Positions 32,196-61,389 of a stretch of 64,000 nucleotides of DNA are shown one piece after another. Made by a program: the position numbers and the translations under genes. The notes beneath the pieces were generated by a model, which was not told the DNA's origin, ran no database searches, and saw only the letters and a program-made list of their open reading frames with translations. The DNA is from Bugulina stolonifera (Eukaryota > Bryozoa > Gymnolaemata > Cheilostomatida > Bugulidae): assembly GCA_935421135.1 (NCBI GenBank), contig OW285191.1, positions 3,759,219 to 3,823,218 on the forward strand, written 5' to 3'. Each line of letters begins with the position of its first letter. Within the stretch, counting starts at the first letter, position 1.

Positions 32196-33470
32196 TTAGG
32201 GAGTACTACTGCCTCCAGGCACATAGGAGCCATCGGCCAGTTGAATTCTAACAGAACGAATAAGACCATCATGTGACTTATAGCATTCAAGCACACGTCC
32301 CACACTCCACTTATTCCTCACCATGTTCGCCTCTCTCAACATGACTATATCTCCTACATTCACACGTTCACTTTCATTCACCCATTTCTGTCTAGCCTGT
32401 AGTGATTGCACATACTCATTCTTCCAACGAGTCCAAAACTCATTAGCAATAGTTTGAACCTGTCTCCAGCGTTTTCTAGCATACAGGTCAGCAGGGTCAA
32501 ATTCACCAGGTAGTGGTAAGACAATGTCAGACTTCATTGTTAACAAGGTGTTAGGTGTGAGCACTGTCATTTCACTGTCATTTAAATTTTCACTTGTCAG
32601 TGGCCTGCTATTTACAATTGCCATAGCCTCATAAAACACTGTGCGTAAGGTATTTGTGGAAATTCTCCCACCATGCTTTCTTAAGATGGATTCTAGTGCA
32701 TTTCTTGCTGTTCTAATTTGCCTCTCCCAGACACCTCCCATATGGCTGGCATTAGCAACATTCATCACAAACTCACATTCATTCTGTTTCAAGAAGGTTT
32801 TTAATTGGGAGTCGACCATATCTTTCAATTCTCTACCCAACTCATTTTTCATTCCTACGAAGTTAGTGCCTTGATCTGACCTTATTTGTCTGACAATGCC
32901 TCTGAGTGCAATAAAATTTCTCAAAGCATTGATCAAAGAGTCGGAAGATAAGTCATCTAAAAGTTCAATATGAATGGCCCTTGATGCCATGCAAGTTAGC
33001 AACAAGCCACATCGTTTAATTTCCTTCCTACAATCTTTTACTAAAAAGGGACCAAAGCAATCTGCCCCTACATTTGTGAAAGGTGGAGCAACTACTAAAC
33101 GCTCTGAGGGCAGATCTGCCATCTTTTGAGAACAGAAGTTTCCCCTAGTCTTCTTACAACTAACACAATCTCTGATTACTGAGCACACTAGCGATCTCCC
33201 ACCAACAATCCATAGACCATGTGAACGTACACAAGCCATCGTTAGACCTCTACCCTGGTGTTGATTGCGTTTGTGAATAAATCTGACAACTAATCTAGAT
33301 ATGTGTGAGGCCTTGGGTAGCACAACTGGATGTTTCACATCAAACTCAACACAATCCATACTGGCTAGTCTCCCACCTACACGCAACAAACCAGCTTTAT
33401 CAAGAAAGACATTCAAACCCCTTAATGAACTGGATTTTGGTAACTTGTTTTTATTTCTCAGAGCTTCCAA
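32196..33470 (-). pseudogene. BEL/Pao integrase region
   Basis: A 424-codon open frame with the zinc-binding HHCC region (HIHKRNQH-like ... CVSCKK), then the DDE core: VGADCFGPF (Asp 1), IRSDQGTNFVG (Asp 2) and the Glu region HMGGVWERQIRTARNALESI, followed by a C-terminal DUF5641-like block (KRWRQVQTIANEFWTRW, VGDIVMLREAN). This order is diagnostic of BEL/Pao. The frame is offset from the upstream pol frame, with a 13 bp overlap, so the polyprotein is broken here unless frameshifting occurs. Confidence 0.88.
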
Positions 33471-36400
33471 TTCTTTGTAGTAGACTTCCTGTTGGGCAAT
33501 TTTATAAATAAATTGTTTGAGCTTTCTACTTTCAACTTGTGCTTAGCCCTGGCAGCTGTCTTTAACACTGTAATTGCATCTACTAACCTACTCCAGCTGG
33601 AGAATTTCTCTGATATTGCAACAAATGGATTGCTCTGTGTCTGTACAGCTTGACTTGTGAGGAGGCATGTCTTAACTTCTGGGTCACTTTCATCTAAGGG
33701 GGATAGTGCAGGCTGCACTGGAGGTGTCATAGGGTACCTGCTAAGGAACTGAGGACCACTAAACCAGTCACATTCTTGCAAGTCCCTGGCTGGCATACCA
33801 CGGGAGGCATAATCAGCGGGGTTCTGAGCAGAGGGAACATAACTCCAATCTGTAGGAGTTGAAACATCCAAGATCTTCTGCACCCTGTTAGCCACAAAAA
33901 TGTGGAACCGCCTTGACTCATTGGATAAATAGCCTAGCACTATCTTGGAGTCTGTCCAAAAATGAAGGCTTGCCTCACTATAACATGTGAGCTGACTCTT
34001 TATAAAATTACCAAGAGTGGTACTAAGAACTGCAGCTTGCAATTCCAAACGTGGTATTGAGACTGTTTTCAGTGGAGCAACTCGAGATTTAGCCATCACA
34101 AGACTACAACACGTTCTGTTCTTACTATCAACCAGCTTCAAGTAGACACATGCTCCATAACCTATCATACTAGCATCAGAAAAACAATGAATCTCCACTT
34201 TCACTACATCCTCTATAGCATAGCCTTTTAAACACCTAGGAATATGAATTTGCTGTACTTCATGCAGGGACTGTAACCAAATTTTCCATCGCTCCTCCAA
34301 CTTGCTGGGAAGACTGGCATCCCATTCTAACTTTTCCCTACAGCATTCTTGCAGCACAAGTTTCCCTTCCATAAGGACAGGGGCTACCAGACCCATGGGG
34401 TCAAATATTGAAGCCACAACAGAAAGGATATTTCTTCTAGAAATCGACCTTGATTTCAAATCTAAATCCAGCTTGAATTTGAAGTTGTCAGCCCTTGTAT
34501 CCCATAGGATACCCAAGGTCCTCTGAGTTTCACTGGTGCTGTTAGGATTCTCAAGTTTCAGCTCAATTGCTTTATCAGCTACTGACTCACACCTCTCACT
34601 GGGAGGTATTTTGCTCATGAGGTCAGCATCATTAGAAACAAACTTATGTAGCCGCACATTTCCTTTCTTACACATTTCTATGGCAGAAACAATAACTTGC
34701 AACGCCTCATCAACTGTTGATGTGCTAGTTAGCCCATCATCAACATAGAAGTCCTGCTCTATAAAATCTACAGTTTTGGCACAATGGATGTCCTTCTTAC
34801 TATGAGCTAGATATCTCAAACCAAATGTGGCACATGCAGGTGAAGATTTGGCACCAAACAAGTGTACATTCATCCTGTACACTGCTACTTTACCCTCATT
34901 GTCAAACCAAAAGAATCTCACGCAGTCTCTATCAGAAGGAGACACTCTAAACTGGTGGAACATTTTCTCAATGTCACAAGAGAAGGCAACTCTCTCAGTA
35001 CGGAACCTCAGCAAAATACCAAGAAGGCTGTTCATCATATCGGGGCCTTGCAACAAGTAATCATTCAACGACTTATCACCTGCTTTAGCACTACAATCAA
35101 ACACCACTCGAATCTTGTCTTTCTTCTTTGGATGATATACTCCAAAGTGTGGAATATACCAGCAACTTTCGTCCACAACACTGCTTTGACCTGCATGCAC
35201 AACCTCAGCATCACCTCTAGCAATTATTTCTGACATGAAGGCTCTATATCTCTCAAAATATTGTGGATCCTTTTCAAACTTCCTAACTAGCAATCTGAAT
35301 CTGTGTTCAGCTACTTGCTTGGACTTGAGTCCATTTTCTGGTTTTTGTTTGAATGGCAACGGCATGGTTACATAGCCATCTGCATCTTGCATAATTTCCT
35401 TGCTCAGCTTGGTAATAAACAATCTGTCATCAACAGAGAGCGAGTCTACATGCATGTGTCTGTCACTAAAATCTGATTCAAGCAACTGCAAAATATCACC
35501 AGGGTCTATGGAGTTATGCTCTCTTTTAGCTACAAAATCAACTGACTGTCTATGTTTGAGCATGGGTTCATTTACTGGTTGTGTCACAACTCTATGGCTA
35601 TACATGTTGTCATCAAATTGTCCTACACCATGGTTGCCTATCACACTCCAACCTAGCACTGTGCGTATGGCAAATGGTTCCTCTGGTGTGGAGGATAGTA
35701 CTTCTAAAGGCATGTGTGCAGCTGTGCAATTAACTCCTAACAAAATCCCAATGTCAAGTTCCATTATAGGTGGCAATTTATCACTTATACTATGCAAATG
35801 TGACCAATTAGCTGCTGTTTGCTGGTTAGGTATGTGCTCCCTATTTATAGGAATGCTACTAGCCGTGGTCAGCACTGCAGGCAATTTTACAACATAGTCT
35901 TGCTTATAGCCTGTGACCTTTAGACCTTCAATCTCAAAGCAATCCACTTCTGTTTGGTTTGACATGGTGTGCAATTTCAACTGCTTGCTATGTTTGTTAC
36001 ACTCTGGAATTTCCAGTTCCCCTACAAGTGCGTCACTTATGAATGAGGCATCAGACATGGAATCAATCAATGCATAGGTCAACTTCTTATTGCCATTGGG
36101 GGAAGCTACCCACACTGGTATAATCATAGAAGACAAGGTTTGATTTGCTGTGGTTAGGTTGCACAAGCTGTTTACTTTTTGATTGTTACTGGCAGGTGCC
36201 TGTGCACTTGTTTCTGGTTGTTTACTTGTAGCTGCACAAGTAGCAGTAGCTGCTGAATCAGTAGCCTCAGATTTCTTACTCTCAAATGTTTTACTTGTAC
36301 TATTTTCTACAGCATGTGATTGACCTCTAGCTGCCTGAAATTTGACTGATGATCGATGTAGAGCAGTGGGATGGTTTAGCTTACAAGATTTGCATGAGGC

Positions 36401-36496
36401 AAGAGATTTACAATATTTAGCAACATGAAAGGGTTTCACACATCTAAAACAAAGTCTATTAGAAGCCAAGAATTTTTGCTGCTCAGTTTCTGGCAT
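33458..36496 (-). pseudogene. BEL/Pao zinc knuckle, protease, reverse transcriptase and RNase H
   Basis: A 1012-codon frame. In order: CCHC-type knuckles (LCFRCVKPFHVAKYC, CKSCKLNHPTALH), an aspartic protease motif ALIDSMSDASFI at about residue 140, RT with the FYVDDGLT active site near residue 600 (about 34,733-34,752), and RNase H with CFSDASMIGYGAC and FWTDSKIVLGYL. This belongs to the Pao/BEL clade by domain order and the Pao-type RT-connection region. It is marked broken because gag upstream and integrase downstream are out of frame. Confidence 0.9.
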
Positions 36497-36499
36497 GTC

Positions 36500-37191
36500 T
36501 CTAAGCTTATAGCATTCAGCTGTCTCATGTGGTTTCTGGCAGCAAACGCAGTTAGCATGGTTTTTGTTATGTGTACATTCGCTGCTTGGGTGCTATGAAC
36601 ATGTGCTTTGTTGCTCCTAGGACTAGGTGTACTAACACTCCTGAACTCCTGAAAATCGTTACACAACTGCGGATCATTTAGAATATCAGCCTCAGCCTCC
36701 ACAAAACTAGCAAAATCTCTAAATAAAGGAAATCTACCAGTGACCTCCTTTTTCTTTACAACACGCCTACACCACCTGTTATTCAGCCATTCTGGCAATT
36801 TAGCAGCAAGTCTTCTATTGAGCCAACTATCATCTAATATGCTCAAGTCAGGAACTGAATCCTGTGCAGCCTTACTTTGTTGTAGCAAATCTGAAAATTG
36901 CAGAATACCGTTAGCATCTTTGTTACTTAGCTTAGGGAATCTCTCAAGCTTTAACCTGAAAGTTTCGGATATTCAACTGGGATCACCAAACCTCCTAGTC
37001 AACACTTCTAATGCACGAGCAAAGGCATCATTGGTCTCAAGGTATAGATAGCCAGAAATAGCCCTTTCAGCATCACCACCTATATACTTCTTCAGATAAA
37101 ACATCTTTTCCACTGCAGTAATACCAGACTGCCTATCAATCAGAACATCGAAAGCACGCTTCCATTGTGCAAATTCAAGAGGATTACCCAT
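36500..37191 (-). pseudogene. BEL/Pao gag region with in-frame stop
   Basis: The minus strand starts MGNPLEFAQWKRAFDVLID and continues with IGGDAERAISGYLY and EVLTRRFGDPS, typical of BEL/Pao gag (A..AI.G......Y..A...L..RFG.P). A TGA follows GDPS, then the same frame continues with FRLKLERFPKLSNKD. A further frame change near 36,595 precedes the zinc-knuckle part. Confidence 0.82.
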
Positions 37192-50634: not shown

Positions 50635-50640
50635 AGCAGA
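50635..50640 (+). other. Left 6 bp target-site duplication AGCAGA
   Basis: AGCAGA directly precedes the left end (AGTAGTATAG...) and recurs directly after the right end at 61,384-61,389. A 6 bp duplication is the Polinton/Maverick integrase signature. Confidence 0.93.
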
Positions 50641-51011
50641 AGTAGTATAGTCAGTGCACTTCTAGACAGACACGCACTCATTGACCCCTGTTTTCAACCA
50701 ATCACAAGCCGGTATTTCCGATTTCAACCAATCACAGAAGAGCACAAAAATTTTGCACACGACCTTGCCAAGGTCACCCCAAAATCCCCCCTTCTGATTG
50801 GTCGAAAAAACATTTGCACACTTGACCCCGAACCCGGCCACGACCCCTTCCCTTCCTCCTTCCCACCCTCCTCCCCTCCCCCTCCCCCACCTCCCACTCC
50901 TCCCCCCTCCCCGACACCGCCCTCGTCCCGTCCGCGCCACCGCCGTCGCCGCCGCCGCCACCGCCGCCCTCACCACCGCCGTCGCCGCCGCCACCACCAC
51001 CGCCCTCACCA

Positions 51012-51042
<31 letters not shown>

Positions 51043-51367
51043 CGCCACCACCACCACCGCCGCCACCACCACCACCGCCACCGCCGCCGCCGCCGCCACC
51101 ACCACCACCACCACCGCCGCCGCCGCCGCCGCCGCCGCCATCACCGTCATCACCGCCACCCCTCCTCCACCGCCGCCCACCCTCCCCCCCGCAACCCCCA
51201 CTCACCCGAACGACCAATCGTTTGAGGCGGTCAAGCCGCGTCCGCCCACGTTGCGTGCGGCGCCGACCGTACACGTGGAGGCGACGCCGGTGCCCCGTAT
51301 CCACCGGGCCAAGCGACTAGGCAGCGGCCCGCCGCCCATTCCGAGTTCCACTGGGGTGGGACTATAA
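50641..51367 (+). repeat. Left terminal inverted repeat of the Polinton (727 bp)
   Basis: Starts AGTAGTATAGTCAGTGCACT and is the inverse complement of 60,657-61,383. Comparing the two and their three-frame translations shows one difference (A at 50,914 opposite the complement of G at 61,110). The middle, about 50,930-51,150, is an extremely GC-rich CCG/CCA triplet tract. The outer part contains two near-copies of (A/T)CAACCAATCACA. The inner end runs into a TATA box. Confidence 0.95.
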
Positions 51368-51370
51368 AAG
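51363..51370 (+). promoter_or_regulatory. TATA box TATAAAAG at inner edge of left TIR
   Basis: TATAAAAG straddles the TIR border (GGGACTATAAAAGATAAG), 54 bp before the ATG of the first ORF; the TIR therefore supplies most of the promoter. The right TIR copy reads TATAATG at the same place, so the box is complete only on the left. Confidence 0.7.
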
Positions 51371-51423
51371 ATAAGTTTGACTGATGATAGTATTAATACA
51401 AAGAAGACTTAGTCATAGCAAAC

Positions 51424-52752
51424 ATGTCTTTTCTCACCAAAGGAGCAGCGGGGAGATATGTACTTTTAAAGGAAGTCCTCCCGAAGTCTGTATGGGATTA
51501 TATGATCAAAAGTAATATCGAAGAAGCGAATAGTCCATGGATGTGGTATTGGGTTGACAGACTCGCTCATAATTCCTTAGTGGTAGAGCTTGCCATCTAT
51601 TTTAGAACACTTTCACTCTCTATGAATATCCCTTTTAAGATAGGAGAGGAAAAGTTGAGGAAAATGGCACTTTGTTATGAAGACTTAACAGGAGCTAGGT
51701 CAAGATTTTCATCTATGGTAGAAACAAAAAACGCATCCGTTTCTTCTCCCTTACTCCTTCTTAGGAATGCAGAGTTGTCAACCTGGTGTAGAGTGGAGGT
51801 TGAGAAGATTATTGAAGATAGAAACTGGGATGAAACTGGTGTGGGAGCGGAGGCCACTTTTAACACTCACTTCTTACTATATCTGGATAATGAACCTGGT
51901 GGGGAAGGTTCAAAGAATGAACTCTATCATAGAGTATTGAACATATTAAAGGATGGGGCAAGAAGATGTCGCTTTGAGGATGGGAAGGAGAAATCGCGAG
52001 CGAAGAGGAGTTACAATGAAGAAAGCATCCCTGGTTTAATTCTTAGTAGAGGTAATACGCTATATGCAGGGCGATTGTTTGGAGAACTAGATCCATCCAA
52101 AAATGGGTTAGAGGTGATAAGAAGTCCTTCACCAGGAGATGCTAGATTAGAGGTGAGAGAGACTTCTACAGGAGAGACTAACCAGGTTATGATAGAAGAG
52201 GTTGAAATGTGTGACATTGGAGAACTAGATTCATCCAAAAACGGGTTAGAGGAGATAAGAAGCCCTTCACCAGGAGAAGCTAGGGTGGAAGTGAGAGAGA
52301 CTTCTACAGGAGAGAATAAGCAGATTATGATAGAAGAGCGAACTCATGTAGAAACTAAAGAAGAGGTTGAAATGTGTGACAAAAGGGAACAAGAGATTAG
52401 AAAGATAGAACAAGAATTGGCACTAAAGAAAGTGGAATTGGCAGGAGCACTGGGGTGGAAAGAAGCACTAGAGATGCAACAGAGAATTGATGCAAGAAAA
52501 GAGAGAAGAACAAATCGCATTGCCTTCTTAGAAAAAAAGTTAACAGAGGAAAGAATGGAAAAAGAGAGGTTAATGATGGAAATCGAGCGTTTGCAAAAAG
52601 AAGAAGAAGAAGAAAAAATGGATAGTGTATCAATTATTGATCACATAATTCCCCACCTGGCTAACAAACTAGATGATAATGATGCAAAAGCAGAAGGGGA
52701 AGATAGTAAACTGCCACAGTGGGTTCCAACAGGAGAAAGTAATGATGAATAA
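51424..52752 (+). CDS. Polinton ORF1: unknown 442-residue protein with coiled coil
   Basis: A 442-residue protein I do not recognise, first gene after the left TIR and preceded by TATAAAAG. Residues 1-200 look globular (MSFLTKGAAGRYVLLKEVLP, SPWMWYWVDRLAHNSLVVEL). Around residues 220-315 a block of about 47 residues is duplicated in tandem: GELDPSKNGLEVIRSPSPG then GELDSSKNGLEEIRSPSPG, each followed by EVRETSTGE and IMIEE-like segments. From about 320 to 405 it is Glu/Lys/Arg-rich and strongly predicted as coiled coil (KREQEIRKIEQELALKKVEL). No polymerase, helicase or primase motif is visible. It may be a replication-associated or structural protein; that is a guess. Confidence 0.85.
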   Translation: MSFLTKGAAGRYVLLKEVLPKSVWDYMIKSNIEEANSPWMWYWVDRLAHNSLVVELAIYFRTLSLSMNIPFKIGEEKLRKMALCYEDLTGARSRFSSMVETKNASVSSPLLLLRNAELSTWCRVEVEKIIEDRNWDETGVGAEATFNTHFLLYLDNEPGGEGSKNELYHRVLNILKDGARRCRFEDGKEKSRAKRSYNEESIPGLILSRGNTLYAGRLFGELDPSKNGLEVIRSPSPGDARLEVRETSTGETNQVMIEEVEMCDIGELDSSKNGLEEIRSPSPGEARVEVRETSTGENKQIMIEERTHVETKEEVEMCDKREQEIRKIEQELALKKVELAGALGWKEALEMQQRIDARKERRTNRIAFLEKKLTEERMEKERLMMEIERLQKEEEEEKMDSVSIIDHIIPHLANKLDDNDAKAEGEDSKLPQWVPTGESNDE

Positions 52753-52792
52753 AAGTGTATAGATTCCAATCGTTCTCTCAAACAAGGGCAAG

Positions 52793-53200
52793 ATGTCAAA
52801 GCAAGAGGTAGTATGTAGAAATGAGAATTATGAAGATGTGGCTGATGGTCTCTTAGATGAAGTAGTAGCTATCTCTGCTGAAGAGGGAAGGGAGCGAATA
52901 GGAGAGAGAAGCAACAAAAGAAAGAAGTTCACATTCTACATAATCATAATACTATTTATACTTTCTTGCTCATCTTTATCACCATCAGTTTACACATATC
53001 TAAGTGATAGGGAACCACCCAATGGCAAAGACAAAGGAGTACTTAAGCAAGGACACTTTTTAAAAACAAACACAACTCTATTAGCTACTCAACTGGATCA
53101 GCATGCGTCCACACCAAGAAATCGATCTTCGCTTGCAGAGTCCCTTCACAGCTCTAGTCTGTGGTCCAACAGGGAGTGGAAAAACGGAACTACTATTTAG
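52793..53200 (+). CDS. Polinton ORF2: small single-pass membrane protein
   Basis: 135 residues: a hydrophilic N-terminus (about 45 residues, ending in basic RSNKRKK), one strong membrane segment at about residues 46-64 (FTFYIIIILFILSCSSLSPS), and a Ser/Thr-rich tail. Its last 98 bp overlap the start of the ATPase gene in another frame. The stop-anchor layout suggests a virion or host-membrane protein. No family recognised. The tail read in the ATPase overlap may be constrained mainly by the ATPase frame. Confidence 0.65.
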   Translation: MSKQEVVCRNENYEDVADGLLDEVVAISAEEGRERIGERSNKRKKFTFYIIIILFILSCSSLSPSVYTYLSDREPPNGKDKGVLKQGHFLKTNTTLLATQLDQHASTPRNRSSLAESLHSSSLWSNREWKNGTTI

Positions 53201-53762
53201 TCTTATTAGGAGAGTTGATGAAATTGCTTCACCCACTCCTGTTGAAATCATTTACTGCTATGGAGTTTGGCAACGCCGCTTTGAGGATTACAAGGATAAA
53301 GTAAGGTTTCATTCAGGACTCATTGATGTAGAAATGGATATAGAGCGTGATGGGAAGAATCGCTGGCTCATCATTGATGACTTGATGGGTGAAGTCGGGG
53401 GGAAAGAGACTACTAATGCAATCTTTACAAAGTTCAGTCACCACCTGAACATAAGCGTCTTTTTCTTACTACAGAACCTTTTCCCGAAAGATAATAGAAC
53501 AGTGTCAATAAACTCGCAGTACTTTTTCTTGTTCAAGAATCCCAGAGACGGAATGTCTGTTACCAATCTTGCAAAGCAGGCTTTTCCTCAGAGTACAAGA
53601 GCTGTTCAAGAAGCTTTTAGTGATGCTACACGTAAGCCACACTCTTTTCTATTCTTGAATCTTCGCCAGGAAACCCCGGAGTGGGCTAGACTGATCGGTA
53701 ATTTTGCTTCTGAGCACTCTCCCATGACTGTATATATCCCGAATACCCTGGAATATAAGTAG
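53103..53762 (+). CDS. Polinton genome-packaging ATPase (A32/FtsK-HerA-like)
   Basis: 219 residues with Walker A GPTGSGKT (residues 21-28) and Walker B RWLIIDDLM around residue 90, plus a conserved FFLLQNLF strand typical of A32-like packaging ATPases of Polintons and virophages. Such ATPases pump DNA into preformed double-jelly-roll capsids. The ATG at 53103 (MRPHQEIDLRL) places the P-loop at the usual distance from the start. A TATAAG element overlaps its 3' end and may serve the next gene. Confidence 0.9.
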   Translation: MRPHQEIDLRLQSPFTALVCGPTGSGKTELLFSLIRRVDEIASPTPVEIIYCYGVWQRRFEDYKDKVRFHSGLIDVEMDIERDGKNRWLIIDDLMGEVGGKETTNAIFTKFSHHLNISVFFLLQNLFPKDNRTVSINSQYFFLFKNPRDGMSVTNLAKQAFPQSTRAVQEAFSDATRKPHSFLFLNLRQETPEWARLIGNFASEHSPMTVYIPNTLEYK

Positions 53763-53794
53763 CATTCACATCTCTACTCTCTCCATAAACTGTC

Positions 53795-54193
53795 TTGGAC
53801 TCGAAGAGAGCGCATCCATCATCAAGCATGAGATACATTAATTCACCCGAGTATTCTCCAAGGTTGAGGAGGAATGCCTTGAGTATATATGCACTGACGA
53901 AAGCATCTGCAACCATCAGAGATTCAACCATTGCTGAGGCTAACAAAGACCTTATACTCGCTCTTGTTGAGTGTGCTAGAAATGTATTATTAGGTAATGT
54001 TCATCTAACTACCGCTCAGTTGAACTCTCTACGTCGACATAGAAGGGCCATTGAGGATCTCACCAACTCTCGTACTAGTGTGAGGCAGATAAAGTTAATC
54101 CTACAACGTGGCGGATTTTTAGGTCTTCTTTTGAAGCCATTGGCAAGTTTACTTGGAGGTGTGCTTGGTGGATTAGGCGGTGGACGAAGGTGA
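53795..54193 (+). CDS. Polinton small protein with QRGGF and Gly/Leu-rich hydrophobic tail
   Basis: 132 residues (or 121 from the ATG at 53828, MRYINSPEYS). It has a helical middle, a basic segment LNSLRRHRRAIEDLTNSR, then KLILQRGGFLGLLLKPLASL and a Gly/Leu run to the end. Proteins with a basic R.HR..I..L motif followed by QRGGFL and a hydrophobic tail are recurrent in metazoan Polinton-like elements, where the role is not settled; a membrane-active or minor capsid role is plausible. It overlaps the next ORF by 14 bp. Confidence 0.75.
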   Translation: MDSKRAHPSSSMRYINSPEYSPRLRRNALSIYALTKASATIRDSTIAEANKDLILALVECARNVLLGNVHLTTAQLNSLRRHRRAIEDLTNSRTSVRQIKLILQRGGFLGLLLKPLASLLGGVLGGLGGGRR

Positions 54194-54764
54194 AATGAGT
54201 CTCAAGTTTTCTAAAAAGTATCTTCTTATGGATAAACATACATATGAATCAATGAATAGTAGAAACAACAAAAAAGAAGGAGAGCATCTACCCTCACTCT
54301 CTACAAATGGGGATCTACTCCTGGCAGAAAAAAGCAGAAAAGATGTAATATCTAACCTCAAAAACTCTGATACAGACATCTACTCTCAGCTAGAGCAACA
54401 TGCTCATAAAATGAATAAGTTCCTAAAAGAGTTGGAGAGATCACGCCATCCGCAGCAGGAGTTGTATAATACATTAGAGGGAATTAACACTAGGTTTAAT
54501 GAAATGCATACATGGAGACAAAGAGAAGAAGAAGCACAAGAGCGAGGGCGAGAGAAAAAAAGAGATGATGAAAAGAGGCGAAGTGGCTCAAGGTCACCAC
54601 TACCACACCCATATAGGAGAGAAACAAAACCAGAGAGGTCAGAAGCTGGCGCACGTTGGAGTGGGAAGGGTGAAAATAGAAGTCCTATCAAAACTAGGTC
54701 TAGGCGAAAGCTTCCTAAAACCCCTCTTGCAAGCAATAGTAAAACAGAAAGATGGATGATATAG
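54180..54764 (+). CDS. Polinton unknown protein, helical with Arg/Ser-rich tail
   Basis: 194 residues. Starts MDEGEMSLKFSKKYLLMDKH (the second Met at residue 6 is an alternative start), has a helical middle of about 80 residues (LEQHAHKMNKFLKELERSRH), then a highly charged tail with RSGSRSPLPHPYRRE and RSRRKLPKT that could bind nucleic acid. It overlaps the integrase ORF by 13 bp. No enzyme motif seen and no family assigned. Confidence 0.7.
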   Translation: MDEGEMSLKFSKKYLLMDKHTYESMNSRNNKKEGEHLPSLSTNGDLLLAEKSRKDVISNLKNSDTDIYSQLEQHAHKMNKFLKELERSRHPQQELYNTLEGINTRFNEMHTWRQREEEAQERGREKKRDDEKRRSGSRSPLPHPYRRETKPERSEAGARWSGKGENRSPIKTRSRRKLPKTPLASNSKTERWMI

Positions 54765-55822
54765 ATGAAGGTCTACGTGATATTTACTTCTCCCCTCCTC
54801 AACCACCATCTTTTGGAGGAAAGAGAAAGTTAGTTTTAGCTTCTCCTCCTGGTATTAATGAGAATGATGTTGAGAAGTGGTTGAGAAGTCAAGACGCATA
54901 CACTCTTCATCGCCCGATTAGAATGAAGTTTACAAGGAGAAAAACGTTTGTGAGTGGGATTGGTGAACAACTCCAGGCAGATCTCGTGGATGTGCGTGCG
55001 CACAAGGACTCAAATGATGGAGTAACATTTTTGCTCACCTGCATAGATGCCTTCTCACGGAAAGCATGGGTCTTTCCTCTTCATTCCAAGTCTGGTCTGG
55101 AAGTGTCCAATGCACTCATCTCTCTATTCGAAAATGAAAGCTTTAGACAAATACAAACTGATAAAGGTAAGGAGTTCCTAAACAGAAGGGTGAGTGAAGT
55201 GCTAAAGAAGTATGGAGTTAGCCATTTCACCTCTGAGAATGAGATCATCAAGGCTGCTCTTGTTGAACGCTTTAATAGAACATTGAGAGGGAAAATTCAT
55301 CGTCTACTCACTTATAGAGGGGATGGACGCTACTTAGAAGATGTAGAAGACCTAGTCCAAGGATATAACAACAGTTTTAATAGGTCAATTGGAATGAAAC
55401 CTATTGAGGTTGATTACGATAATCAAGAAGAGGTTTGGGTTCGGTTAAATGAGTTCTCACCTAAACGATGGTTAAAGAAAACAAGAGTAAAATACTCACC
55501 AGGTGATCATGTTCGGATTTCGATGGCTCGTAGTAGCTTTGAGCGAGGGTTCACACCAAACTGGTCAACCGAGATATTCACCATAAAAGCAGTCAAGGCA
55601 CATACCTCACCTCCTGTCTATACACTGGAAGACCTAAACAAAGAAGGAGTAGATGGAACATTCTATGCACAAGAATTGCAACATGTTAACCTACCTGAAA
55701 TCTTTAGAGTTGAGAAAGTCATACGTAAACGGAGAAGGAGAGGAAAAGAAGAGAGTTTCGTGAAATGGAGTGGTTATCCCTCTTCATTTAATAGTTGGAT
55801 AGATTCTAGTCAGTTTGTGTAA
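54752..55822 (+). CDS. Polinton retroviral-type integrase with C-terminal chromodomain
   Basis: 356 residues. The DDE core is complete: D77 (LQADLVD), D137 (IQTDKGKEF) and E172 (ALVERFNRT), with 34 residues between the last two. The leader DAYTLHRPIRMKFTRR matches the pre-core of Polinton integrases; a full HHCC zinc finger is not evident. After the core comes an SH3-like region (RVKYSPGDHVRISMAR, FTPNWSTEIFTI), then a basic RKRRRRGK stretch and a chromodomain (EESFVKWSGYPSSFNSWID) ending the protein. It would catalyse insertion using the TIR ends; the perfect 6 bp duplication agrees. The chromodomain may steer insertion to histone marks. Confidence 0.96.
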   Translation: MDDIDEGLRDIYFSPPQPPSFGGKRKLVLASPPGINENDVEKWLRSQDAYTLHRPIRMKFTRRKTFVSGIGEQLQADLVDVRAHKDSNDGVTFLLTCIDAFSRKAWVFPLHSKSGLEVSNALISLFENESFRQIQTDKGKEFLNRRVSEVLKKYGVSHFTSENEIIKAALVERFNRTLRGKIHRLLTYRGDGRYLEDVEDLVQGYNNSFNRSIGMKPIEVDYDNQEEVWVRLNEFSPKRWLKKTRVKYSPGDHVRISMARSSFERGFTPNWSTEIFTIKAVKAHTSPPVYTLEDLNKEGVDGTFYAQELQHVNLPEIFRVEKVIRKRRRRGKEESFVKWSGYPSSFNSWIDSSQFV

Positions 55823-55834
55823 GATCAAAGGTAG

Positions 55835-55842
55835 TATAAATT
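55835..55842 (+). promoter_or_regulatory. TATA box before the penton-like gene
   Basis: TATAAATT lies 42 bp upstream of the ATG at 55,877, with a TCAGTTTT initiator-like motif between, suggesting an internal promoter for the capsid gene cluster. Confidence 0.55.
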
Positions 55843-55876
55843 CGATATGTAAGTTCAGTTTTGCTCACTCTCAAAG

Positions 55877-56623
55877 ATGGCCTTCAATGTCACACTTACC
55901 TCAAATGTACGCATCGGTGGGAGTGACACAAACACCAATGCTCACTTCATTACGAAGCTAGCCAAGACATTGAAGCTTCACTCATCACAGTGGGAGGTTG
56001 GGTTACTTGACATTCAGTACCCTGCATCCTGGAGAAATGTGGAAGATGGCTATGTAGTGGTTACGAATACAAAAGATGGAGTCAAACGAAAATGTGAAAT
56101 CAGGAGTGGAAGGTATGCTTCCATGGGTGAACTTTTGAGTGAGATCAATAGAATACTAATAAACTACGACTTAGAAAAAGTAGTGAGCTTTTACTATGAT
56201 AGTCTACGGAATGAAACCTTCCTCATGTTGAGAGAACAGGAACACTCTGTCATGATGTCACGTGATGTTGCGTGGGTGTTGGGATTCGAACCTGATGTAG
56301 AATATGCTGCGGAAATCAACAGGAGTCAAAACCCTCCAGACATCAATGCTGGTTTCACATCCCTCTATGTCTACTCCTCCGTAGTCTCACCAAGACATGT
56401 TGGAGATAGTCTAGTCCCCCTACTTCGCACAGTTCCTATAACAGAGAGTGAAAGAAATAGCACCGTTTTCTTTGAGTTTTCGAATGTTCAATACTCTCCA
56501 GTGTCTAATACAAGCACAGACCTCATCGAGGTAGATATAAGACGTGATGATGGAGAAAGGGTCTCATTTCGCAGTGGAAAGGTTGTGCTGACGGTTCGTT
56601 TCAGACCGCGTGGAGAGAAATAA
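55877..56623 (+). CDS. Polinton minor capsid (penton-like) protein
   Basis: 248 residues. Starts MAFNVTLTSNVRIGG and contains LKLHSSQWEVGLLDIQYPAS, a pattern repeated across metazoan Polinton minor capsid proteins (small single-jelly-roll penton-type): a beta-rich protein with L.L...WEV.L..I.YP..W. Later strands include VAWVLGFEPD and SLYVYSSVVSPRHVGDS. It sits directly before the pX/pVI-like and major capsid genes, the normal morphogenesis neighbourhood. The fold is inferred from family likeness and position. Confidence 0.78.
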   Translation: MAFNVTLTSNVRIGGSDTNTNAHFITKLAKTLKLHSSQWEVGLLDIQYPASWRNVEDGYVVVTNTKDGVKRKCEIRSGRYASMGELLSEINRILINYDLEKVVSFYYDSLRNETFLMLREQEHSVMMSRDVAWVLGFEPDVEYAAEINRSQNPPDINAGFTSLYVYSSVVSPRHVGDSLVPLLRTVPITESERNSTVFFEFSNVQYSPVSNTSTDLIEVDIRRDDGERVSFRSGKVVLTVRFRPRGEK

Positions 56624-57035
56624 CATGGCCCCTCGCATAGTTCCATATTTTCCTGATGAGTCAGGTGAGATGTATGAAGACTATTATGCAAACCAGGTGG
56701 GAGAGGGAATGAGTGTGTACAGGGGAAAACCTATTATGACGGGTAATGGGATCGGCTCACTCTTTTCTGGACTGGCCCGAGGGGTCCTTCCCATGCTAAA
56801 GAATGGTGCCAAAACTATTGGGAAAAAGCTATTGACTACTGGAGCTTCGGTTCTGGGAGATGTAATCAAGGGAGAGAACTTCAAATCCTCTGCAGCAAAA
56901 CGTTTTCGTGAAGCTGGTGGGGATCTTCTAGGTGATGTAGAAGATGAATTACGTGAACCACCTGCCAAACGTGCACGAGTTAGTCAAAAGTCTACAAAGA
57001 AAAAGCGTAAAGGAAGAAAAACAGTTTTTGACTAA
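56610..57035 (+). CDS. Polinton pX/pVI-like minor virion or core protein
   Basis: 141 residues from 56,610, or 136 from the better-placed ATG at 56,625 (MAPRIVPYFPDESGE), which avoids overlap with the previous gene. It has a Gly-rich amphipathic segment (GIGSLFSGLARGVLPMLKNG), a helical middle (SSAAKRFREAGGDLLGD) and a strongly basic tail (KKKRKGRK), the layout of adenovirus pX/pVI-type minor core or membrane-lytic proteins noted in Polintons and adintoviruses. A DNA-binding or capsid-cement role is inferred. Confidence 0.72.
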   Translation: MERNNMAPRIVPYFPDESGEMYEDYYANQVGEGMSVYRGKPIMTGNGIGSLFSGLARGVLPMLKNGAKTIGKKLLTTGASVLGDVIKGENFKSSAAKRFREAGGDLLGDVEDELREPPAKRARVSQKSTKKKRKGRKTVFD

Positions 57036-57047
57036 ATGAAAGATAAA

Positions 57048-57054
57048 TATATAA
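57048..57054 (+). promoter_or_regulatory. TATA-like element before the major capsid gene
   Basis: TATATAA lies about 90 bp before the ATG of the major capsid ORF, with CA/CTC-rich initiator-like sequence after it. Confidence 0.45.
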
Positions 57055-57140
57055 TCCACACCTAGACTCACCACTCCCCACTCTTAGACAAGCGACTGTA
57101 GGAGCAAGTACTAGATGGAACAACTCTCACACTATCGAAC

Positions 57141-58487
57141 ATGTCCGTCACACATCGAGCCATCTCTCTCTCCAAGGTTTCTGAAGACTCTCCAGACACG
57201 GTTGACTCCAGTTTTGACTTATTTGCCACTCCGCCAACTCATACTAGCGTGCTCAGAGGTGAGTGGGTACCTTTGGCTCCTGTTACGGACTCCCCTGATG
57301 GCACTATTGAATTTAACATCCCGCCCGCAGACGAACTCTACACAGATCTATCAAGGTCTTACTTACACACCACAGTAAAGGTGAGCAAGGCTGATGGAAG
57401 CGTACTACCTGCGGAAGAACAACTAAAGGTTGTTCCAGGGGACAATTTTATGCACAGTCTCTTTTCTTCTGCCACTGTTCAACTGGCCGGGCAAGATGTT
57501 GAGTATGAACCAAACTATGGACATAGAGCTTATGTCGAGAATCTCCTAAACTATGGTAAAGATGCTAAGAGCACATATATGAAAGTTGGGAGTGGGTGGA
57601 TGGAGGATGAAGGAACTGGAGAAGACTATGATGGTATACCTCCCGAAGTGGTTGAAAAAAGAAAGAAACTTATAGCCACAAGTAAAGAGATGAGCTTCTA
57701 TGGGAGACCTAGGTTGAGTATGTTTTCTCAAGGAAGACTTATTCCACCAGGAGTTCGCTCTCGCCTTACTCTACAACGTGCTATTCCACAAATGGCCCTC
57801 TTAGCAGAAACAGACAACCCTGCAGGAGGGGCGAAGATTTCTATAACTAAGACAGAATTGTGGATTCGACGTGTACAAGCCAATCCGGCCTTACAAAAAG
57901 CACAAATGGATGTTTGGGTTGTGCAACAAGAGTCTATAAAACTACCAATTGACCGAATAAAAACTCATTTCCATGTCATCCCTGCTGGACACCAGTCAGT
58001 GAGAGTAAACTTTGATCAAGCGGGACAGAAGCCAAACAGAGTCTTTGTCGGACTAGTCAACCATACTGCAAAGAGTGGAACGTATAAGCAAAATCCCTTC
58101 AAATTTGGACATAACAATCTAAGTTCATTAGAATTACTAATTGATGGAACACCGGTGACCCGAAGATATGAACCAAATTTTGCAAGTGGAAAGTTTGCTC
58201 GTGAATTCATGAATTTGTTCACTGTCACAAATACATCCGATGCTGACACAGGGAATGAGATCTCCCCTAGCAAATACAAGTCCTGCGCTGCTCTCTACGC
58301 CTTTGACATTTCAGGAGATTTGTGTGATGACAACTTTCACTTGTTATCAAATGGGAGTCTATCTATTAATCTAGCATTTGCTAATCAAACTCAAAATACA
58401 CTTGGACTGTTTGTATACGAAGAAAAAGATGACATTATCTACTTGAATGCAAATCACGAAGTATCTATGGTAGCCGGGATGATGTAA
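57141..58487 (+). CDS. Polinton major capsid protein (double jelly-roll)
   Basis: 448 residues, the largest ORF of the element. It begins MSVTHRAISLSKVSEDSPDT and contains GTIEFNIPPADELYTDLSRS, then FMHSLFSSATVQLAG with YEPNYGHRAYVENLL. These are the N-terminal features (target-site-like P...YTDL....; NF.HSLFS...V.LNG) characteristic of Polinton double-jelly-roll major capsid proteins; the second jelly roll would lie from about residue 270 (HFHVIPAGHQSVRVNFDQ). Such proteins form pseudohexameric capsomers of icosahedral shells. Seven bases (run of A) separate it from the protease. No frame damage. Confidence 0.88.
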   Translation: MSVTHRAISLSKVSEDSPDTVDSSFDLFATPPTHTSVLRGEWVPLAPVTDSPDGTIEFNIPPADELYTDLSRSYLHTTVKVSKADGSVLPAEEQLKVVPGDNFMHSLFSSATVQLAGQDVEYEPNYGHRAYVENLLNYGKDAKSTYMKVGSGWMEDEGTGEDYDGIPPEVVEKRKKLIATSKEMSFYGRPRLSMFSQGRLIPPGVRSRLTLQRAIPQMALLAETDNPAGGAKISITKTELWIRRVQANPALQKAQMDVWVVQQESIKLPIDRIKTHFHVIPAGHQSVRVNFDQAGQKPNRVFVGLVNHTAKSGTYKQNPFKFGHNNLSSLELLIDGTPVTRRYEPNFASGKFAREFMNLFTVTNTSDADTGNEISPSKYKSCAALYAFDISGDLCDDNFHLLSNGSLSINLAFANQTQNTLGLFVYEEKDDIIYLNANHEVSMVAGMM

Positions 58488-58494
58488 AAAAAAA

Positions 58495-59022
58495 ATGGAT
58501 ACATTCTCAATCTCGAATATTCTATCTGATGATAAACTCTCATCAACCTCCTTTAGAGGAGTTATGCCAAGGGATCACTTCTTAGACTCCTTCTCCCCAT
58601 CTGGATCTTTTGTTTTCAACACTCAAACAAGTGAGAAAAGTGGCGAGCATTGGATCTCTGTTTTTTCGAATGGAAAAGAAATAGAGTATTTCGACTCCTA
58701 TGGTCTCCCCCCTTCTATTTATCCTGATGTGGGTAAGATGTTACAACAATGGGGAATACCAATAGTATGGAATGGAGAGTGTCTACAAGAAGAGAGTACT
58801 AACGTGTGTGGAGACTACTGCATCTTGTTCTGTCTCCTTCGAGCTCGAGGGTGGAGTATGGAGGGAATAATTACACGGCTAAGCAGAGTAGAAGGAAGAG
58901 TTCGAGATCATTCTATAAGAGCTCTATTTCAACGTTTATACTATAATAAAAGAAATAATACTTTCCCACTCACAACGCATGTAAACAATATTATGCTTTT
59001 TTCACCTTTTCACTTTGACTAG
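58495..59022 (+). CDS. Polinton adenain-like cysteine protease
   Basis: 175 residues with the C48/C5 (adenain/Ulp1) triad in order: H52 in SGEHWISVF, D67 in EYFDSYGLP, Q98 in CLQEES and C105 in VCGDYCILF. Length is close to Polinton maturation proteases (about 170-200). The enzyme would cleave capsid precursors such as the pX/pVI-like protein. It is the last plus-strand gene and is followed by an A20 run and AATAAA signals. Confidence 0.93.
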   Translation: MDTFSISNILSDDKLSSTSFRGVMPRDHFLDSFSPSGSFVFNTQTSEKSGEHWISVFSNGKEIEYFDSYGLPPSIYPDVGKMLQQWGIPIVWNGECLQEESTNVCGDYCILFCLLRARGWSMEGIITRLSRVEGRVRDHSIRALFQRLYYNKRNNTFPLTTHVNNIMLFSPFHFD

Positions 59023-59252
59023 AGAGAAATACTTCACCTTACTTATAATTCGTTTTTATACTACTATAACTAAAAAAAAAAAAAAAAAAAAAGAGACCAA
59101 TAGTTTTTATCTTACCTGAATTCTTTTTTTTTTTTTTCTTTGCTTTTTAGATTTCTGCTTGATTCTTGATTCTTTTATTTTTTCTCTATTTATCTTCGTA
59201 ATAAAACAATACTACTGAAGAAAGCTGCATCTTTTCTATCTTGGAATAATAC
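59023..59252. terminator. Convergent 3' region with A20 and T-runs and polyadenylation signals
   Basis: Between the plus-strand protease and the minus-strand 86-residue ORF: an A20 run at about 59,072-59,091, T-runs at about 59,127-59,139, GTAATAAAAC (plus-strand signal) near 59,200 and TTTATT (minus-strand AATAAA) near 59,175. It looks like a shared terminator for convergent transcription. Confidence 0.5.
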
Positions 59253-59513
59253 TCATCCATGGGTTGTTGTGGTCTCGCCCCTATCCGAGGCCCGCTCCGG
59301 GGAGGACGGAGAGTCCACCATGTTAGAAAGATCCTTTCGGGCAGGACTCCCCACTCCTATTATTTTCCCCTTCTTCCGTGCCTCTTTTAACGCATCCACC
59401 TCTTCTTTCCTCTTCTGACTGCACTCTTCTTCCTCAATAATTCCATCCATTTGTGAGTCCGTTAAGCCCGCAAATAACTCTTCTTGGTTTTGTACTATGT
59501 TGTCAGTATCCAT
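59253..59513 (-). CDS. Polinton minus-strand small acidic protein
   Basis: 86 residues, the only minus-strand gene candidate. The N-terminus is acidic (ELFAGLTDSQMDGIIEEEE), the middle basic and helical (KRKEEVDALKEARKKGK), the end Ser/Pro-rich (SPARKDLSNMVDSPSSPE). It has its own TATA box (TATAAAGG, 59,602-59,595) about 82 bp upstream, and a leader without ATG. Its position opposite the structural genes, next to the iteron palindrome, suggests an early or regulatory role; this is an inference. No family recognised. Confidence 0.6.
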   Translation of the reverse strand: MDTDNIVQNQEELFAGLTDSQMDGIIEEEECSQKRKEEVDALKEARKKGKIIGVGSPARKDLSNMVDSPSSPERASDRGETTTTHG

Positions 59514-59594
59514 TGATAATGTACTATTGTAGTAGTGTAGCTGTACAGTAGTGATGTGGTGAACTTTGAATGCTGAGACTGTGATCCCACTCTC

Positions 59595-59602
59595 CCTTTA
59601 TA
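59595..59602 (-). promoter_or_regulatory. TATA box TATAAAGG for the leftward 86-residue ORF
   Basis: On the minus strand TATAAAGGGAGAG lies about 82 bp from the ATG and just outside the iteron palindrome, which could act as its enhancer. Confidence 0.6.
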
Positions 59603-59647
59603 CAACTGCTCATTTCTTGACTCCTCCCTTTTTTTATCCAATCCCAA

Positions 59648-60360
59648 TGTGACCCGATGTGAATCCGAAGCCTTCCGATGTGAATCCGAAGCCTCCCGAT
59701 GCATCCCGATGTGAATCCGAAGCCTTCCGATGCATCCCGATGTGATTCCGAAGCTTCCCGATGCATCCCGATGCATCCCGATGTGAATCCGAAGCTTCCC
59801 GATGCATCCCGATGTGATTCCGAAGCTTCCCGATGCATCCCGATGTGATTCCGAAGCTTCCCGATGCATCCCGATGTGAATCCGAAGCTTCCCGATGCAT
59901 CCCGATGTGATTCCGAAGCTTCCCGATGCATCCCGATGTGATTCCGAAGCTTCCCGATGCATCCCGATGCATCCCGATGTGAATTGACACATCGGGATGC
60001 ATCGGGAAGCTTCGGAATCACATCGGGATGCATCGGGATGCATCGGGAAGCTTCGGAATCACATCGGGATGCATCGGGAAGCTTCGGAATCACATCGGGA
60101 TGCATCGGGAAGCGTCGGATTCACATCGGGATGCATCGGGAAGCTTCGGAATCACATCGGGAAGCTTCGGAATCACATCGGGATGCATCGGGAGGCTTCG
60201 GATTCACATCGGGGTGCATCGGGAGGCTTCGGATTCACATCGGGGTGCATCGGGAGGCTTCGGATTCACATCGGGGTGCATCGGGAGGCTTCGGATTCAC
60301 ATCGGGGTGCATCGGGAGGCTTCGGATTCACATCGGGAGGCTTCGGATTCACATCGGGGT
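59648..60360. repeat. Giant palindrome of ~31 bp iterons
   Basis: Two arms of about 335-370 bp are built from opposite-facing tandem copies (about ten per arm) of a 31 bp unit containing ATCGGGATGC, ATCGGGAAGC and TTCGGATTCAC. The arms meet at CCCGATGTG-AATTGA-CACATCGGG (loop 59,982-59,987). Each unit contains ATGCAT and AAGCTT six-base palindromes. Copies near the centre carry AAGCTTC, and outer copies carry AGGCTTC in both arms, so the divergence is symmetrical. ORFs of 120-190 codons through it in several frames (HREASESHRDASG repeats) are artefacts of the repeat. Confidence 0.95.
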
Positions 60361-60656
60361 GGGGAAATGGTTAGACTCCGCCCACTGAATACTACTATTT
60401 AAGGTATAAGTTTCTCACTCTAGCAGTATGAACAATCAGCCTCTAGTCAACAGAGTGAGAGTAAACAGAGACAGCTACCTACTAGTCAGTGCCTGATCAG
60501 AGATGTCAACAAGTAGAACATAAGGTTAGTGTTAAATGGAGTAATTGGCAGCAATTGTGAAGTGTTTATTGTATAAAATGCTATCAAGCTAAAAAATAAC
60601 TCACACCCTACTACTATATATTTTTATAGGGAGGCTAAACAATTTAATATATTACA
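60361..60656 (+). promoter_or_regulatory. Rightward promoter-like region and short leader
   Basis: Immediately right of the palindrome is ACTATTTAAGGTATAAGTTT, TATA-like, followed by a 22-codon ORF (60,428-60,496, MNNQPLVNRVRV...) and a good donor AAG|GTTAGT near 60,524. With the leftward TATA on the other side, the palindrome sits between two outward-facing promoter-like sequences. Transcription from here would run into the right TIR; no larger gene is found. Confidence 0.4.
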
Positions 60657-60981
60657 TTATAGTCCCACCCCAGTGGAACTCGGAATGGGCGGCGGGCCGC
60701 TGCCTAGTCGCTTGGCCCGGTGGATACGGGGCACCGGCGTCGCCTCCACGTGTACGGTCGGCGCCGCACGCAACGTGGGCGGACGCGGCTTGACCGCCTC
60801 AAACGATTGGTCGTTCGGGTGAGTGGGGGTTGCGGGGGGGAGGGTGGGCGGCGGTGGAGGAGGGGTGGCGGTGATGACGGTGATGGCGGCGGCGGCGGCG
60901 GCGGCGGCGGTGGTGGTGGTGGTGGTGGCGGCGGCGGCGGCGGTGGCGGTGGTGGTGGTGGCGGCGGTGGTGGTGGTGGCG

Positions 60982-61012
<31 letters not shown>

Positions 61013-61383
61013 TGGTGAGGGCGGTGGTGGTGGCGGCGGCGACGGCGGTGGTGAGGGCGGCGGTGGCGGCGGCGGCGACGGCGGTGGCGCGGACGGGACG
61101 AGGGCGGTGGCGGGGAGGGGGGAGGAGTGGGAGGTGGGGGAGGGGGAGGGGAGGAGGGTGGGAAGGAGGAAGGGAAGGGGTCGTGGCCGGGTTCGGGGTC
61201 AAGTGTGCAAATGTTTTTTCGACCAATCAGAAGGGGGGATTTTGGGGTGACCTTGGCAAGGTCGTGTGCAAAATTTTTGTGCTCTTCTGTGATTGGTTGA
61301 AATCGGAAATACCGGCTTGTGATTGGTTGAAAACAGGGGTCAATGAGTGCGTGTCTGTCTAGAAGTGCACTGACTATACTACT
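60657..61383 (-). repeat. Right terminal inverted repeat of the Polinton (727 bp)
   Basis: Inverse complement of the left TIR with one difference found, ending ...GTGCACTGACTATACTACT. Contains the same CCG/CCA (here GGC/GGT) triplet tract. The open frames in it encode poly-Gly, poly-Ala/Val or poly-Ala/Thr and are not credible genes. Confidence 0.95.
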
Positions 61384-61389
61384 AGCAGA
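61384..61389 (+). other. Right 6 bp target-site duplication AGCAGA
   Basis: Identical to 50,635-50,640; the uninterrupted host site would read ...ACACAGCAGAAACACAA.... Confidence 0.93.

Follow-up and report, generated by a model that had tools for sequence, protein, structure and literature searches.

The window analysed here, a 64,000-nucleotide stretch of contig OW285191.1 from the bryozoan Bugulina stolonifera, contains a Polinton/Maverick-type element of 10.7 kb (50641–61383), whose family has multiplied without carrying a DNA polymerase B (PolB) gene. The left terminal inverted repeat (TIR; 50641–51367, plus strand) begins with the doubled AGT end motif of Mavericks and includes a GC-rich triplet tract at about 50849–51190. 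The right TIR (60657–61383) lies on the minus strand. Both repeats are 727 bp long, and a single mismatch separates them, at 50914. The element is flanked by a 6-bp target-site duplication, AGCAGA, at 50635–50640 and 61384–61389, and holds ten open plus-strand reading frames (ORFs) of 121–448 aa. These observations bear out the full ends, the duplication and the ten intact ORFs proposed in an initial annotation.

Two of the genes claimed in the initial annotation were assigned through Pfam matches above the curated cut-offs. The first is a predicted A32-like packaging ATPase (53103–53762, 219 aa; Pox_A32, 28.5 bits against a cut-off of 22.8), and the second is a predicted rve (DDE) integrase with a chromodomain (54752–55822, 356 aa; rve, 44.5 bits; Chromo, 28.8 bits). 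Upstream of the ATPase lie ORF1 (51424–52752, 442 aa) and a 135-aa ORF (52793–53200), which has one hydrophobic stretch recognised by eye and whose frame overlaps the ATPase. Two further ORFs, of 121 aa (53828–54193; ORF list and Pfam search) and 189 aa (54195–54764), have no assigned function; the latter gave a sub-threshold betaPIX_CC coiled-coil match (E 0.0057).

The 448-aa protein (57141–58487) had no match by sequence alone in Pfam or among solved structures. Its structure model (mean pLDDT 65, with 140 of 448 residues below 50) was closest to the PBCV-1 capsid proteins (E 2e-15, TM about 0.53) and also matched the mavirus capsid (E 1.2e-11). From this modelled fold, it is predicted to be the double jelly-roll major capsid protein. 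A large protein search returned seven relatives besides the protein itself, at 28–49% identity; phage records queried with the capsid and integrase proteins, and viral contigs queried with the capsid protein, yielded nothing informative. The 248-aa ORF (55877–56623), which had no meaningful sequence match in Pfam or solved structures, is a probable minor capsid protein by its position in the gene order of vertebrate Mavericks (PMC8097293). In the same gene order, the 136-aa ORF (56625–57035) stands in place of the PW protein. For the 175-aa protein (58495–59022), weak matches to Peptidase_C5 (E 0.1, below the Pfam cut-off) and Cysteine protease S273R (E 0.086), together with its place in the gene order, suggest an adenain-like cysteine protease. 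Of the two capsid proteins claimed initially, the major one is thus supported by its fold, while the minor one, like the protease, is less secure than stated. A 31-bp repeat array (59653–60358), built of two opposed halves (59653–59969 and 59988–60358), fills part of the sequence that separates the protease gene from the right TIR. Rfam and tRNA scans gave no match.

By its end motif, long TIRs and 6-bp duplications, as well as by the predicted rve-type integrase, packaging ATPase and capsid fold, this element is of the Polinton/Maverick type. The name self-synthesising refers to the PolB of Polintons; this protein-primed polymerase is missing from the element, as noted initially. The longest stop-to-stop frame is 461 aa, and the PolB motif patterns scanned for, including the YGDTDS and SLYPS types, were found in none of the six frames. 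When the whole genome was searched with PF03175, the viral PolB model of Pfam, all 14 candidates were scored and none of the 11 matches lay on the window's contig, which also rejects a PolB elsewhere on that contig; 14 control genomes gave 0 matches. The initial annotation had suspected the missing gene at 59–60.6 kb. This was mistaken: that stretch holds the repeat array and no hidden PolB, and the PolB site of vertebrate Mavericks is upstream of the ATPase (PMC8097293), where the window element has ORF1. A 1044-aa frame at 33458–36592 was rejected as a PolB candidate, being part of a BEL/Pao retrotransposon.

The home genome (235 Mb) was searched for relatives. A 221-bp query from the left inner edge of the element gave 40 scored matches out of 721 candidates, and all 40, the window's own included, were 100% identical over the 221 bases. 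The outermost 29 bases of the TIR (≤3 mismatches) occurred at 553 forward and 553 reverse places, compared with 0 for the reversed-pattern control. The 100 TIR-end places listed, all with zero mismatches, formed 50 inward-facing pairs 8.4–17.2 kb apart; by extrapolation, about 550 elements would be present if the remaining ends pair alike. Core markers (≤3 mismatches) were found at 195 places for ORF1, 199 for the integrase and 196 for the capsid gene, with 0 in the controls.

From the 39 other matches to the 221-bp query, 19 were fetched as copies; these are among the best-matching ones and not a random sample of the family. Their main aligned stretch was 98.6–99.95% identical to the window copy in all 19 cases, and in 9 of the 19 the repeat array was covered by an additional aligned piece, about 1.1 kb long, at 93.7–94.6% identity, lower than the rest. 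The estimated lengths were 10.1–10.9 kb, excluding one copy (L028) with an internal deletion across the capsid and protease region. Each copy had its own, different 6-bp duplication (18 of 18 by script; that of L028 was read from the same output and sits in a local tandem repeat, which could give the appearance of a duplication). None of the 19 contained PolB. All ten ORFs were open in 18 of the 19 copies; the ORF1, integrase and ATPase frames were open in every one, and the capsid and protease frames in 18. Given the intact ends, the distinct duplications and the open frames in the copies read, the element multiplied and integrated recently without carrying PolB. This supports the recent movement proposed initially, and the sought-after copies with the same TIRs, the same gene order and no PolB were indeed found. 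The many TIR ends, the markers at 195–199 places and the PolB-less copies reject a lone deleted copy, and the 19 distinct duplications reject a mis-joined assembly.

Selection on the encoded proteins was assessed by comparing nine ORFs with those of the window copy; the small ORF overlapping the ATPase was excluded. Of 28 coding changes, 15 were nonsynonymous, compared with an expected fraction of 0.716 calculated from the observed substitution spectrum (p 0.03, uncorrected). Among the changes found in more than one copy, the proportion was 5 of 13 (p 0.013, uncorrected). The capsid gene was unchanged in the 18 copies that have it. The signal of selection is weak and would be compatible with some constraint on the proteins.

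We then turned to the PolB genes of the same genome. PF03175 gave 11 matches at ten loci, which fall into three groups (A, B and C). Group A comprises six loci, 98.3–99.8% identical across aligned stretches of at least 3 kb. Its end pattern occurs at 5 forward and 4 reverse places in the genome, forming four complete inward-facing TIR pairs 14.8–15.1 kb apart, each enclosing PolB and ATPase; a single end lies near a fifth PolB locus. An ATPase match was located about 3.7 kb from the PolB match at all six loci (150 of 192 candidates were scored in this search; ten matches were listed, the other four lying elsewhere and the window's own not being among them). The PolB frame of group A (L013, 919–4488, minus strand) also matches Endonuclease_7 just ahead of the polymerase domain. 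In the one group A copy read at both ends, the 38 terminal bases are identical and a 6-bp duplication is present; the latter is weak evidence, for the surrounding satellite array often contains the same six bases. A PolB-bearing Polinton with both ends, at G000:C10:521975–536795, sits within a satellite repeat array.

Comparison of the ends showed that group A and the window family share the first nine terminal bases (ten in one group A copy). Beyond these, the ends differ, with no significant similarity in the compared stretches, so a long TIR common to the two was rejected. Intact vertebrate Mavericks end in the doubled AGT more often than in any other motif (PMC8097293), so the shared bases indicate a compatible type of end and not a specific pairing. 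The finding that was to overturn the initial interpretation, a PolB within the window's TIR family, did not appear: on contigs C1 and C2, at least 83 kb separate the five PolB loci from the listed zero-mismatch TIR ends, and four of the six group A loci lie inside a TIR pair different from that of the window family.

We consider it probable that the window element represents a PolB-less Polinton lineage with a satellite-like life, whose DNA is copied by a PolB from another source acting in trans. A terminal-protein-primed PolB would recognise the doubled AGT ends and copy the linear DNA, and the element's own integrase would insert the copies, which may be packaged with its own capsid set. As donor, the PolB-bearing Polinton of about 15 kb present at six loci of this genome would be the simplest choice; a possible alternative is a related virus from outside the genome. 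A trans-acting PolB working on the doubled AGT end would account for the ends, the missing polymerase, the few PolB relatives and the copy-number imbalance. Satellites multiply only where a helper provides their replication, and group A is a candidate for that part. Use of a helper, one of the routes raised in the initial annotation, is what we infer for this family.

Several points weigh against this explanation. None of the steps of replication in trans was observed. Being common to Mavericks in general, the doubled AGT does not single out a donor, and the orphan ORF1 could have a replication role that went unrecognised. At some donor loci the PolB frame is split or contains a stop, and the genes seen in group A are limited to PolB and an ATPase match. 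Against the selection signal, coding and non-coding sites vary at near-equal rates (30 variants at 7326 sites and 4 at 807, respectively), and the fetched copies, drawn from the 40 best scored matches, are biased toward young ones.

A second type of core was found under the same terminal repeat. It was recognised from a 1.2-kb piece (L087, G000:C1:5455800–5457000) located midway along a member of the window's TIR family that is 9.5 kb long. The stop-to-stop frames of this piece do not exceed 87 aa, it shows no similarity to the window element, and a pattern taken from it occurs at 110 places in the genome. Contigs C1 and C2 have 48 complete TIR pairs with zero mismatches, of which 19 enclosed the ORF1, integrase and capsid markers and 19 the second-core marker; six had part of the first marker set and four had none. 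The sorting relied on listed markers with zero mismatches for the first set and zero or one for the second core, hence the "part" and "none" classes may be overcounts. Outside the pairs, the markers listed on these contigs lay at four places for the capsid, three for the integrase and two each for ORF1 and the second core. A more elaborate form of the satellite explanation would see layered parasitism, in which few PolB Polintons supply the polymerase to about 200 PolB-less satellites, accompanied by at least 110 second-core elements. The latter, apparently gene-poor and bounded by the same terminal repeat, could be served by the integrase of the satellites or form a second genome part. We regard this extension as tentative and rather doubtful.

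The open integrase frame raises another route, in which the enzyme moves double-stranded copies as in a transposon, the host machinery replicates them, and the capsid genes are passengers or have another role. An integrase intact in all 19 copies, precise 6-bp duplications, an element lacking a polymerase gene and the similar variation of coding and non-coding sites in young copies all fit this route. It is harder to reconcile with the doubled AGT end, which is the motif of Mavericks with a protein-primed polymerase. It also leaves the ATPase, open in 19 of 19 copies, and the capsid and protease, open in 18 of 19, unneeded for pure cut-and-paste, with the reservation that 19 young copies are a poor guide to long-term need. 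An rve integrase is not known to excise, which counts against the route as well. Taken together, we find it unlikely.

Replication could also depend on the element itself, with ORF1 or another orphan ORF in the role of PolB; it might, for instance, act as a terminal protein in its own right or as an initiator recruiting the host polymerase. ORF1, open in every copy read, occupies the place where PolB heads the first module of vertebrate Mavericks (PMC8097293), and Polinton-like viruses often have other replication genes in place of PolB, as described in PMC11071308. The searches with ORF1 argue against such a role. The best Pfam and PHROGs matches were insignificant (E 0.041, below cut-off, and E 0.19, respectively), no solved structure was retrieved at E 10, and no relative was found at E 0.001 among 7998 candidates scored in the protein search. 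The single-sequence fold was of low confidence (pLDDT 46), the confident part being restricted to a C-terminal coiled coil. Compared with the frames of three PolB types, ORF1 displayed no similarity at E 1 or better, the group A frame being incomplete in this comparison, which lacked its first part. Replacement of PolB by an orphan ORF is decidedly improbable. ORF1 also contains an internal tandem duplication (52079–52338) with a 138-bp period and 90% identity.

The equal numbers of second-core and three-marker pairs on contigs C1 and C2 would suit a divided genome, in which the second core supplies the replication function and the two kinds make up one multipartite element. This is very hard to uphold: the second-core piece lacks both a longer frame and similarity to the window element, the PolB matches on these contigs stay at the distance given above, and a plain non-autonomous derivative would look alike. 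An ordinary internal deletion, through which a PolB Polinton with the same TIR lost its polymerase and left the window element as one such derivative, is scarcely credible, since 195–199 places carry core markers and no PolB locus among those examined lies in the window's TIR family, even if internal deletions do occur, as in the fetched copy lacking the capsid and protease region, and an older parent is conceivable given that the TIR ends listed are the zero-mismatch ones.

The gene content invites comparison with the vertebrate Mavericks of PMC8097293, in which one module consists of integrase, minor capsid, PW, capsid and protease, and the other of PolB, ATPase, PM and PZ. The window element shares the order of integrase, 248-aa ORF, 136-aa ORF, capsid and protease-like gene with the integrase module and retains the packaging ATPase. 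The doubled AGT ends, long TIRs and 6-bp duplications are also alike. In contrast to the vertebrate elements, it lacks PolB and has the orphan ORF1 and a small ORF upstream of the ATPase, and its 10.7 kb compare with 12.7–24.6 kb for intact vertebrate Mavericks. All of its genes are on one strand, an arrangement that, in the account of PMC8097293, occurs among vertebrate Mavericks only in Xenopus tropicalis.

Polinton-like viruses and Tlr1 are likewise capsid-bearing and without a canonical PolB. Most Polinton-like viruses, as presented in PMC11071308, lack an rve integrase and have other replication proteins, whereas the window element has the integrase and no recognised replication gene; membership in this group was rejected on these two grounds. 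Tlr1 keeps the integrase, but it encodes a helicase (PMC4028283, PMC11071308), unlike the window element with no recognised replication gene. A protein-primed PolB palm was found in Tlr1-like helicases according to the same 2024 preprint (PMC11071308). Elements below 10 kb were treated as incomplete and left aside in a 2014 study of Polinton capsids, which also described a helicase replacing PolB in Tlr elements (PMC4028283). Assignment as a Ginger-type transposon fails on the presence of the capsid and ATPase genes. Ginger-type transposons have a related integrase without capsid genes. With virophages, the element shares its small size, its capsid genes and a proposed dependence on the replication of another element; it differs in that the suggested helper would be a resident Polinton. 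Many integrated viruses in protist genomes have no detectable polymerase and may replicate otherwise, as discussed in PMC10120064. Unlike them, the window family is young, has complete ends and duplications, and shares its genome with a PolB relative that is scarce.

In a review, PolB is among the genes attributed to Polintons (PMC6431247). No report of a burst of PolB-less, integrase-bearing Polintons was found among the open-licence papers listed, judged by titles and the starts of abstracts. In this genome, the family markers outnumber the PolB loci by about 20:1 (195–199 places and ten loci). This imbalance, along with the complete ends and the open virus genes of the copies read, suggests that PolB can be dispensable to the individual element. 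The family thereby offers a natural setting for asking if satellites exist for Polintons as they do for other viruses, if a doubled AGT end suffices for replication in trans, and how helper and parasite share copy number.

Outside the element, the pol region of the BEL/Pao-type retrotransposon was located on the minus strand of the window at 32196–36592. Elements of the BEL/Pao type point to an animal host. Its reverse transcriptase and integrase matches are below the cut-off, while Peptidase_A17 and DUF5641 are above it.

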